Assembly: GCF_000829825.1 (NCBI RefSeq)
Contig: NZ_JXSL01000030.1
Span: 317,501-381,500, forward strand
Length of the DNA stretch: 64,000 nucleotides
Source of the DNA: Paramagnetospirillum magnetotacticum MS-1
Lineage (GTDB): Bacteria; Pseudomonadota; Alphaproteobacteria; Rhodospirillales; Magnetospirillaceae
Reading direction: 5' to 3'
The notes under the pieces are model-generated. The model searched no databases. It saw only the letters and a program-made list of their open reading frames with translations, and was not told the origin of the DNA. This document shows, piece by piece, positions 18,783 to 21,402 of the stretch; the first letter of the stretch is position 1; each line of letters begins with the position of its first letter. The position numbers and the translations under genes are program-made.

Positions 18783-19799
18783 TTACTTCTTCAGGTAATC
18801 GCGGATGAGAACCTCGGCGATCTGCACGGCGTTCAAGGCCGCGCCCTTACGCAGGTTGTCGGCCACGCACCAGAAGTTCAGGCCGTTCTTGACCGTCGGG
18901 TCCTTGCGGATGCGGCTGATATAGACCGGGTCTTCGCCGGTGGTGTCGAGCGGCGTGATATAGCCGCCCGGCTCGCGGGTATCCATCACCACCACGCCCT
19001 CGGCCTCGCGCAGGGCCTTGGTGGCCTCGGCCACGCTGACGGGGCGCTCGAATTCCACATTGATGGATTCCGAATGGCTGACGAAGACCGGCACGCGCAC
19101 GCAAGTCGCGGTCACCGAGATATCGGGATCGAGGATCTTGGCGGTCTCCACCACCATCTTCCACTCTTCCTTGGTCGAGCCGTCATCCATGAAGACGTCG
19201 ATCTGAGGAATCAGGTTGAAGGCGATCTGCTTGGGAAACTTCTGCGGCTTGATGGCGTCATGGACCAGAATGCCCTTTGTCTGGTCGTAAAGTTCGTCCA
19301 TGCCTTCCTTACCGGCGCCCGACACCGACTGGTAGGTGGAGACGACCACGCGCTTGATCTTGCCCAGCTTGTGCAGCGGCTTCAACGCAACCACCATCTG
19401 AATGGTGGAGCAATTGGGATTGGCGATGATGCCGCGCTTCTTGTACTGGGCGATGGCTTCCGGGTTGACCTCGGGCACCACCAGGGGCACGTCGGGCTCC
19501 ATGCGGAAGTGCGAGGTATTGTCAATCACCACACAGCCAGCGGCGGCGGCGCGCGGGCTGTGCAGGGCGGAGACCTTGGCGCCCGGCGACGACAAGGCGA
19601 TATCGCAGCCCTTGAAGTCGAACGTGGCCAGATCCTTGCACTTCAGTACCTTGTCCCCGAAGGAGACCTCACGGCCCACCGAGCGCTCGCTGGCCAGGGC
19701 GACGACCTCATCGGCAGGGAACTTGCGATCCGCCAGAATTTGCAGCATCGCCCGGCCCACATTGCCCGTAGCGCCGATCACAGCAACCTTGTAACCCAT
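18783..19799 (-). CDS. asd: Aspartate-semialdehyde dehydrogenase
   Basis: NADPH-dependent reduction of aspartyl phosphate to aspartate semialdehyde, the branch point to lysine/diaminopimelate, threonine and methionine. 338 residues: nucleotide-binding VAVIGATGNVGRAML at the N-terminus, catalytic Cys in NPNCSTIQMV (~130), GSGAGKEG-like SVSGAGKEGMDEL, and the catalytic His region in RVPVFVSHSESINVEF. The ATG at 19799 is preceded by GGAGAAGAGAAG. A candidate transcription attenuator with its own leader peptide lies directly upstream (19857-20019). Confidence 0.96.
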   Translation of the reverse strand: MGYKVAVIGATGNVGRAMLQILADRKFPADEVVALASERSVGREVSFGDKVLKCKDLATFDFKGCDIALSSPGAKVSALHSPRAAAAGCVVIDNTSHFRMEPDVPLVVPEVNPEAIAQYKKRGIIANPNCSTIQMVVALKPLHKLGKIKRVVVSTYQSVSGAGKEGMDELYDQTKGILVHDAIKPQKFPKQIAFNLIPQIDVFMDDGSTKEEWKMVVETAKILDPDISVTATCVRVPVFVSHSESINVEFERPVSVAEATKALREAEGVVVMDTREPGGYITPLDTTGEDPVYISRIRKDPTVKNGLNFWCVADNLRKGAALNAVQIAEVLIRDYLKK

Positions 19800-19856: not shown

Positions 19857-19942
19857 AAAAGGCCCGCGGGAAACTTGCCGCGGGCCTTTTTCGTACGATC
19901 GTGACGAACCGGCCCGCTCAAGCGGTCTTGGTGGTGCCGGTT
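19857..19942 (-). promoter_or_regulatory. Candidate Thr/Lys-responsive transcription attenuator of asd
   Basis: Four segments on the minus strand can pair in exclusive ways. Segment 1, AACCGGC (19942-19936, inside the leader-peptide codons), pairs with segment 2, GCCGGTT (19913-19907). Segment 2 as GCGGGCC (19917-19911, directly after the leader stop) pairs instead with segment 3, GGCCCGC (19886-19880). Segment 3 pairs with segment 4 to give a 13-bp hairpin AAAAGGCCCGCGG / CCGCGGGCCTTTT (19890-19857), i.e. a terminator with a short T-run. A ribosome stalled at the Thr/Lys codons would mask segment 1 and favour 2:3, letting transcription reach asd. Pairings are seen directly; function is inferred. 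Confidence 0.65.
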
Positions 19943-20019
19943 TTAGTAGTGACGAAGGCCGCCGCCGGGGCGAAACCCCGGGCGTGGGAACCGTTTGCCT
20001 TGGACAAGCAGACGAACAT
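19918..20019 (-). CDS. Leader peptide of asd, 33 aa
   Basis: Small frame on the minus strand beginning MFVCLSKANGSH and ending VTTKTGTTKTA before TGA. Nine of the last eleven residues before the final Ala include five-plus Thr and two Lys codons, amino acids made through Asd. The ATG at 20019 has an excellent ribosome site (GGAGG, five-base spacer); an in-frame ATG at 20031 exists without one. The stop codon abuts segment 2 of the attenuator. No other function suggested. It resembles the thrL-type leader logic of enterobacteria, but not its sequence. Confidence 0.65.
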   Translation of the reverse strand: MFVCLSKANGSHARGFAPAAAFVTTKTGTTKTA

Positions 20020-20091
20020 CACGTCCTCCATCGGAAGGCGTAGCATTAACGGAAGCCGTTGCGCCGCGCAAGGGGAAAGGGGTGGGGAGCC

Positions 20092-21402
20092 TCAGCTCCC
20101 CTTGATGCCCGAGCATACCCGCGAGATGAAGGCGTCGATATCGTCGTTCATGCTGACCGTACGGCTGGCCAAATCACCGGCAGCGATCAGCACCTGACCG
20201 GCGGCGTCGGTGGCGGTGCCCGCCGTCGACGCCACTTCGCCGATAGTGTCGGCCACGGTCTGCACGTCGGCGGCGACGGTGCGGATGGACCGACTCATTT
20301 CGGCCACCGCCGCGCTTTGCTGCTCGGTCGTGGCGGCAATGCCGGTGGCGTTGTCGTTGATCTCGCGGATCTTGCCCGCAATATTGCGCACCGCATCCAC
20401 GGCCTGGCCGGTTGCCTGACGCATGCCGTTGATCTGGCTGGAAATTTCGTCGGTGGCCCGCGCCGTCTGGTTGGCCAGATGCTTGACCTCGTTGGCCACC
20501 ACGGCGAAGCCCTTGCCCGCCTCGCCCGCCCGAGCCGCCTCGATAGTGGCGTTGAGCGCCAGAAGATTGGTCTGGGCGGCGATCTCGGTGATCAGGCTGA
20601 CCACTTCGCCGATCTTCTGGGCCGCCACATTGAGACCGTTGATGGCCTCGTCGGTCTCGGTGGCGACGCGCACCGTCTCCTGGGCCATGCGGGCCGATTC
20701 CTGGATGCGCGAAGCCACGTCGCGGATACCCGACGACACCTGCTCGGCGGCGGCGGCCACGGATTCCACATGGGAATAGGCGTCCTCGGCCGCACCGGCG
20801 ACGCGGGTGGATTGTTCGCTGGTCTGGGACGCGATATCGGACATCTGCTGGGCGGTGGCTTCCAGTTCCGTGGCGGTGGAGGCCACGACCTGGGTCACAT
20901 GCTTGATGGTGTTGCCCACGCCGGTGGCCTCGGCGCTGAAGGCCTGGGCACGCTTTTCCATTTCGCTCAGCGCCTGGTTGATCAGGCGGGCGTGGTCGGC
21001 GAATTCGCCCACCAGGCCATCGGTGAGGATGTGGCGGAAATAACGCCCTTCCGAGGTCAGCGTCATGGCAGCGTCAGCCTCCTTGGTGAAGGCCTCGGTC
21101 AAATCGAGAAGGCGGTTGACCGCTTTGTCCAGCTGGCCGAGGACACCGCCTTCAGTGATCCCCACCACACGCACGTCCAGACGCCCGGCCCCGGCCTCGG
21201 CCAGAATGGTGCAAGCCCGGTGGATGGAGGCCCGCGCGCGGTTGAGATAGAACAGCGCAGCCAGTGCCCCCAAGGCAGCCAGCCCGATGGCCCCGGCATC
21301 GAGCAGGGTCCCTCGGCTGAGCGCGATTACCGCGCCGATGCCGCACAGCACCGCCGACAGGACGGCGGCGGCCAAGGCCCTAGAGAGAGAAGACGAATTC
21401 AT
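20092..21402 (-). CDS. Methyl-accepting chemotaxis protein without large sensor domain
   Basis: Signalling receptor for the chemotaxis kinase CheA. 436 residues: two closely spaced N-terminal membrane helices (about 10-28 and 31-45, [19 protein letters not shown] and [10 protein letters not shown]), a helical linker, and a full cytoplasmic domain with the hairpin tip [35 protein letters not shown] (recognised in parts). There is no periplasmic sensor. The start at 21402 lies inside the upstream PAS gene (23-base overlap), so the PAS protein probably supplies the input, like a split Aer receptor. Ends in a GGGGAGC/GCTCCCC hairpin over the stop. Confidence 0.92.

Follow-up and report, generated by a model that had tools for sequence, protein, structure and literature searches.

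A conserved Thr/Lys leader with competing RNA helices upstream of asd in Paramagnetospirillum magnetotacticum and its relatives: a putative transcription attenuator

Introduction

The threonine leader thrL of Escherichia coli (Rfam RF00506, Thr_leader) precedes thrABC, encodes a Thr-rich peptide whose control codons are those for Thr and Ile, and follows the 1:2 / 2:3 / 3:4 logic of alternative RNA pairings; in classical attenuators the antiterminator is generally taken to work during transcription. The asd gene encodes aspartate-semialdehyde dehydrogenase, from whose product Lys, Thr, Met and Ile are all made. To our knowledge, few attenuators have been described in alphaproteobacteria.

As far as the available parts of the sources go, the trp and ilvB leader peptides of alphaproteobacteria are cases of leader control in this same class, serving other amino acids and other genes. 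For Thr and Lys, the accessible portion of a study from 2023 (PMC10117765) describes SEP5 of Sinorhizobium meliloti as conserved in Sinorhizobium only. This short ORF, located in the 5' UTR of a gene named “aspartate dehydrogenase”, contains six Thr and three Lys codons towards its 3' end, and the study suggests that it may be a leader peptide. The gene in question is probably asd. The idea of a Thr/Lys leader peptide in this class was thus not wholly unforeseen, being foreshadowed by the SEP5 proposal. No account of an asd attenuator that includes the RNA structure is found in the literature that we searched, including the available parts of PMC2965389 (the accessible main text of which does not mention asd), PMC10117765 and PMC1273637, although a mention of asd in Vitreschak 2004 (FEMS Microbiol Lett) is possible. 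The remark in the original prediction that no such asd attenuator was known in alphaproteobacteria has to be corrected in part, to make room for SEP5 as a possible leader peptide.

Here we describe an element preceding asd in the window, by which we mean the whole analysed stretch of 64,000 nucleotides from Paramagnetospirillum magnetotacticum MS-1 (contig NZ_JXSL01000030.1, positions 317,501 to 381,500); all coordinates below are window positions. Like thrL, the element has a Thr-rich leader peptide and a proposed pairing logic of the same kind, and its GCGGGC / GCCCGC / GCGGGC segments are very similar to those in the Thr_leader alignment. Unlike thrL, it stands before asd and codes for Thr and Lys. 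From SEP5, which the available text of PMC10117765 defines by its ORF and codons, it differs in having a predicted RNA structure and in its wider distribution.

Results

Layout of the asd leader region

On the minus strand, the window carries in this order a chemotaxis-receptor gene (3' end at 20092; an MCP signal domain was found), the ribosome-binding site GGAGGA (20024..20029), the leader ORF, segments 2, 3 and 4, and asd (18783..19799, 338 aa), the proposed target gene, whose identity is borne out by a match to NCBIfam NF011456 at 522.8 bits. The leader ORF, MFVCLSKANGSHARGFAPAAAFVTTKTGTTKTA, comprises 33 codons (19918..20019, with the ATG at 20019 and the stop codon TGA at 19920-19918) and ends in VTTKTGTTKTA; on re-reading, its letters and coordinates and those of GGAGGA proved correct. 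Its control codons, ACT ACT AAA ACC GGC ACC ACC AAG ACC, include one for Gly (19924..19950) and contain segment 1, AACCGGC (19936..19942). Segment 2, GCGGGCCGGTT (19907..19917), abuts the stop codon and is followed by segment 3, AAAAGGCCCGCGG (19878..19890), and by segment 4, CCGCGGGCCTTTT (19857..19869), which forms the 3' arm of a terminator-like hairpin together with its U run. All four segments and the pairings originally proposed among them, including the 13-bp hairpin of segments 3 and 4, were found in place. From the end of segment 4 to the ATG of asd there are 57 nt, and segment 4 includes no ribosome-binding site for asd.

The shortness of the T run, which had been named as a weak point from the start, is real: the U run of the window measures 4 nt and doubles as the 3' end of the 3:4 stem, and a consensus scan of the window called no terminator at this hairpin. 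The leader region folds somewhat better than its shuffled versions (z -2.4; 6/200 shuffles equal it). Searches of Pfam and NCBIfam with the leader peptide returned zero matches. A further hairpin, CCGGGG/CCCCGG, lies inside the leader ORF (19965-19981, minus strand); it is 97.9% paired among the 16 genus sequences, with covariation equalled by 58/500 shuffles. Upstream of the leader we noticed by eye a promoter-like stretch, TTGCGC and TTAATG(C) with 16/17 nt between them (20043..20071, minus strand), which is partially conserved in an alignment of 16 genus genomes and may serve as a promoter; consensus scans did not call it, giving no sigma-70 promoter there.

The leader peptide in the genus and beyond

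An asd match was obtained in 16/17 genomes of the same genus, and all 16 readable upstream regions possess both the leader, with Thr and Lys making up 6-8 of its last 14 residues, and a 2:3 complement. In the alignment of these 16 sequences the GGAG of the leader ribosome site is invariant, the AAA ACC GGC and CCAAGACCGC codons are mostly kept, and segments 2, 3 and 4 are nearly unchanged. Three loci (L009, L010 and L012) have fewer Thr codons and retain both Lys codons, their peptides ending in FKTGTSKTA, LKTGTPKTA and FKTGTPKTA, respectively.

For a wider survey, we drew asd upstream regions from genomes of the same family, order or class as the window's genome, together with those on named contigs, giving 299 loci, of which 286 distinct ones remained once L016 (asd start absent), L163 and L236 (too short) and 10 duplicates had been taken out; this denominator still holds a few paralogues (e.g. 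L018, L176). By a strict count, a short ORF with at least 7 Thr+Lys among its last 14 residues occurs in 71 of the first 226 distinct upstream regions, as against 0-1 per set in 20 dinucleotide-shuffled sets, and Thr+Lys tops all 190 amino-acid pairs. The runner-up is Ala+Thr (58/226); Thr is common in combination with other residues too, which makes the case for Lys less strong than the case for Thr. In a search that disregarded start codons, at least 5 of the last 14 residues were Thr or Lys in 101/286 regions and at least 6 in 92/286; the low-scoring part of the 101 (e.g. L064, L204, L288, L298) looks like chance, and requiring a start codon left 95 regions at the threshold of 5. In a raw, uncontrolled count, 75/92 leader-positive loci match the ribosome site over at least 4 nt. 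Outside the Thr/Lys end, the peptides vary strongly between families, as judged by eye.

The distribution of the element is patchy. In the order sample, 82/127 loci and 10/19 families are positive, the latter figure including one doubtful leader (L204). Within the window's own family, one locus scored as negative (L111) carries the leader farther upstream, and a 23-bp inverted repeat lies there between attenuator and asd; in six others (L106, L113, L122, L172, L019 and L176) a Thr/Lys leader was not found before the asd or asd-like genes, and the element seems to be absent or replaced in parts of this family. In genome G078 both of the two asd genes (L115, L186) are preceded by a Thr/Lys leader of their own with the 2:3:4 arrangement.

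Pairing and covariation of the RNA segments

In 86 of the 101 Thr/Lys-rich regions, sequence near the leader stop codon is complementary to the 5' arm of the best hairpin (at least 6 nt, with G-U pairs allowed). This complement begins -1 to +3 nt from the stop codon in 80/86, and the hairpin starts 20-36 nt past the stop codon in 85/86. The rule of hairpin plus complement is not specific by itself, because 46/165 leader-negative regions also pass it. A stretch of at least 4 T in 6 nt stands at the hairpin end in 64/86 of these loci. The stricter demand that segments 2 and 4 be identical copies is satisfied by 38/85 leader-positive and 11/201 other regions, and six of those 11 (L004, L161, L164, L165, L201, L223) turn out to be Thr/Lys-rich when read back from the stop.

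A similarity cut reduced the 86 loci to 60, of which 55 were aligned (L064, L150, L253, L298 and L299 were left out), so that these representatives are preselected for a 2:3 complement. The best-covarying part of the element is the 3:4 helix, which is 90.2% paired and shows both-side changes at 6/11 pairs, a figure matched by 0/500 shuffles. The 2:3 helix is paired in 94.3% of cells and yet nearly invariant: both-side changes occur at only 2/7 pairs, in one cell each, and 20/500 shuffles equal this. The 2:3 duplex nevertheless beats shuffled sequence (mean z -2.8 for 46 family loci, -2.7 for 39 others), RNA that begins with segment 2 and stops after segment 3 adopts the 2:3 fold in 55/55 of the preselected representatives, and in two loci (L134, L146) the core is altered jointly in segments 2, 3 and 4 (GCGGCC/GGCCGC/GCGGCC). 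Segment 3 being common to both helices, 2:3 and 3:4 are mutually exclusive.

The 1:2 stem is a different matter. Overall it is 60.4% paired in the representatives, and the exact AACCGGC/GCCGGTT pair is found in 29/46 leader-positive members of the window's family and 0/55 outside it. Mean z scores are -0.9 (family) and -0.2 (outside) against codon-shuffled leaders, and -1.2 and -0.6 against shuffled downstream sequence; 1:2 thus hardly stands out from controls. Of what had been expected to be conserved in relatives, then, the leader frame, 2:3 and 3:4 are kept, the last with compensatory changes, but 1:2 is intact in only some members of the window's family.

Occurrence elsewhere in the genome and the order

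A covariance model built on the 55 representatives found a single convincing site in the window's genome, the one before asd, at 99.2 bits (150 of 3298 candidates scored); the next match, at 32.9 bits, is the same hairpin read on the opposite strand. Across the order, at least 95/149 genomes have a match at E <=0.01 (24 candidates scored per genome). The 59 best matches among the 149 genomes, all at E <=1.6e-6, include loci on which the model was itself partly trained; the position of asd is known for 54 of them, and 54/54 lie upstream of it. Two of these 54 (L315, L316) have a GNAT acetyltransferase gene between element and asd, and the leader of L316 is poorer, with 4 Thr+Lys in the last 14 residues. 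When 20 weaker or displaced matches in the order were inspected, two were L315 and L316, and the other 18, all below 40 bits and not associated with asd, resembled ordinary gene ends with terminators, judging from the printed stretch and its ORFs alone. A Thr/Lys-rich frame was seen in 4 of these 18 (L319, L320, L323, L324). Before hom, aspartate kinase (ask) and dapA of the genus, with gene starts set by alignment and 49/49 regions usable, 0/49 regions reach 5 Thr+Lys residues, the best having 4.

Relation to the Rfam threonine leader

At gathering cut-offs, Rfam yields zero matches in the window. The best match below them is RF00506 at 33.2 bits (E 4.8e-5), where the curated gathering score is 55. 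Among 20 related loci, 8/20 match this family at E <=0.1, the best at 49.3 bits; a score of at least 55 bits is reached in 0/120 order genomes and in 1/14 control genomes, and weak matches are scattered over many other places in the order genomes. Membership in RF00506 was rejected on these scores.

A Thr/Lys leader in a second order

Thr/Lys-rich ORF ends also precede asd in the order of genome G298 (L391-L460), which is probably Hyphomicrobiales, because it resembles Chelatococcus and Thr/Lys-rich ORFs stand before asd in L043, L097 and L098. Here the threshold of 5 Thr+Lys among the last 14 residues is reached in 36/70 upstream regions and that of 7 in 33/70 (31/70 by a slightly different rule), with 0 in each of 20 shuffled sets; at this higher threshold Ala+Thr ties with Thr+Lys, also at 33/70. 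By the measure of at least 4 T within 6 nt, a hairpin closes with a T run in 3/35 loci, compared with 64/86 in the first set. A consensus fold of 19 of 35 leader regions from this order gave no common structure. We did find segments that could pair with local sequence as well as with sequence close to the asd start, at 7 nt in 19/35 regions (shuffled mean 4.75, max 8) and at 6 nt in 28/35 (shuffled mean 16, max 21); this set of 35 includes L043, L097 and L098 and differs from the 35 used for the T run. Segments resembling CTCTCCC / GGGAGAG recur between leader and asd start in L391-L460.

Folding with a stalled ribosome

Assuming a downstream ribosome footprint of 13 nt, we folded the RNA of the window that would be left free by a ribosome at different codons. 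With the ribosome at the first Lys and the RNA made up to segment 3, the 2:3 helix forms (-24.1 kcal/mol). With the ribosome at the last Thr, the beginning of segment 2 is covered and a weak fold is left (-8.8 kcal/mol), and one at the stop codon covers nearly all of segment 2, again leaving a weak fold (-2.9 kcal/mol) until 3:4 can form. By hand arithmetic, segment 2 is left free when the ribosome stalls anywhere between the run's first Thr and the Thr preceding the second Lys, both included. When segment 4 is added to the RNA, even the stalled state has a minimum-energy fold that contains 3:4, not 2:3, and therefore 2:3 would have to act during transcription.

Discussion

We propose that the element is very probably a ribosome-mediated transcription attenuator through which asd responds jointly to charged tRNA-Thr and charged tRNA-Lys. 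As in a classical attenuator, a short ORF whose translation is predicted, a ribosome-binding site and control codons for products of the pathway are all there, as are a mutually exclusive putative antiterminator (2:3) and terminator (3:4). If either Thr or Lys were scarce, the ribosome would stall within VTTKTGTTKT, cover segment 1 and leave segment 2 free to pair with segment 3 as soon as the latter was made, so that the 3:4 terminator would be blocked and asd transcribed. Conversely, with both amino acids plentiful, the ribosome would reach the stop codon and cover segment 2, whereupon 3:4 would form and transcription would end before asd. Were the leader not translated at all, 1:2 could form and 3:4 would again be left to form. 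Leader translation, stalling, termination and the physiological response are in this scheme predictions from the sequence. A joint reading of Thr and Lys appears sensible for asd because the enzyme makes the common precursor of the two, and the conservation of the leader in relatives points to a real switch.

Could the hairpin instead be a plain terminator, be it of the upstream chemotaxis-receptor gene or as a constitutive brake on asd, with the leader a chance ORF? The hairpin alone is ordinary, the weak model matches elsewhere look like common terminators, and more than a quarter of the leader-negative regions (46/165) satisfy the hairpin rule. A chance ORF, however, would be expected neither to exceed shuffled sequence so far in Thr and Lys, nor to keep its ribosome site and reading frame throughout the genus, nor to place its stop codon within a few nucleotides of the complement in 80/86 loci, and we regard this explanation as extremely improbable. 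Nor do we favor, considering it very unlikely, a leader that acts mainly on translation or on Rho-dependent termination and not through an intrinsic terminator. The short U run of the window would suit such a mechanism, and so would the second order, the leaders of which mostly lack a U run (3/35 versus 64/86), so that leader-based control need not use one; against it, in the window a gap of 57 nt separates segment 4 from the asd ATG and segment 4 contains no asd ribosome site, and of all parts of the element it is 3:4 that covaries best.

It is, finally, unlikely that the peptide or an attenuated short RNA functions in trans, in the manner of rnTrpL / peTrpL of S. meliloti, which, according to the available portions of PMC7298713 and PMC10117765, provide an alphaproteobacterial precedent. 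Against it, the peptides differ much between families beyond their Thr/Lys end; function in trans is compatible with attenuation, and both could hold. Returning to attenuation of asd, the reading put forward in the original prediction is supported, and comparison across relatives indicates that the element is a real, conserved and attenuator-like one, its sensing and termination steps being predicted.

The output half of the system may differ in the second order, where a U-run terminator is rare. There is, in our estimation, about an even chance that a Thr/Lys leader has been kept before asd across at least two alphaproteobacterial orders while its RNA output differs, with an intrinsic-terminator switch in the window's order and, close to the asd start of the other, a switch that mostly lacks a terminator. 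The order of SEP5 probably uses a downstream RNA different from that of the window element.

If our model is correct, one attenuator would read two amino acids and control the enzyme that feeds both of their branches, which offers a direct explanation, open to testing, of how these bacteria adjust their aspartate pathway. Should the second order prove to belong to the same picture, one kind of sensor peptide would be coupled to two RNA outputs.
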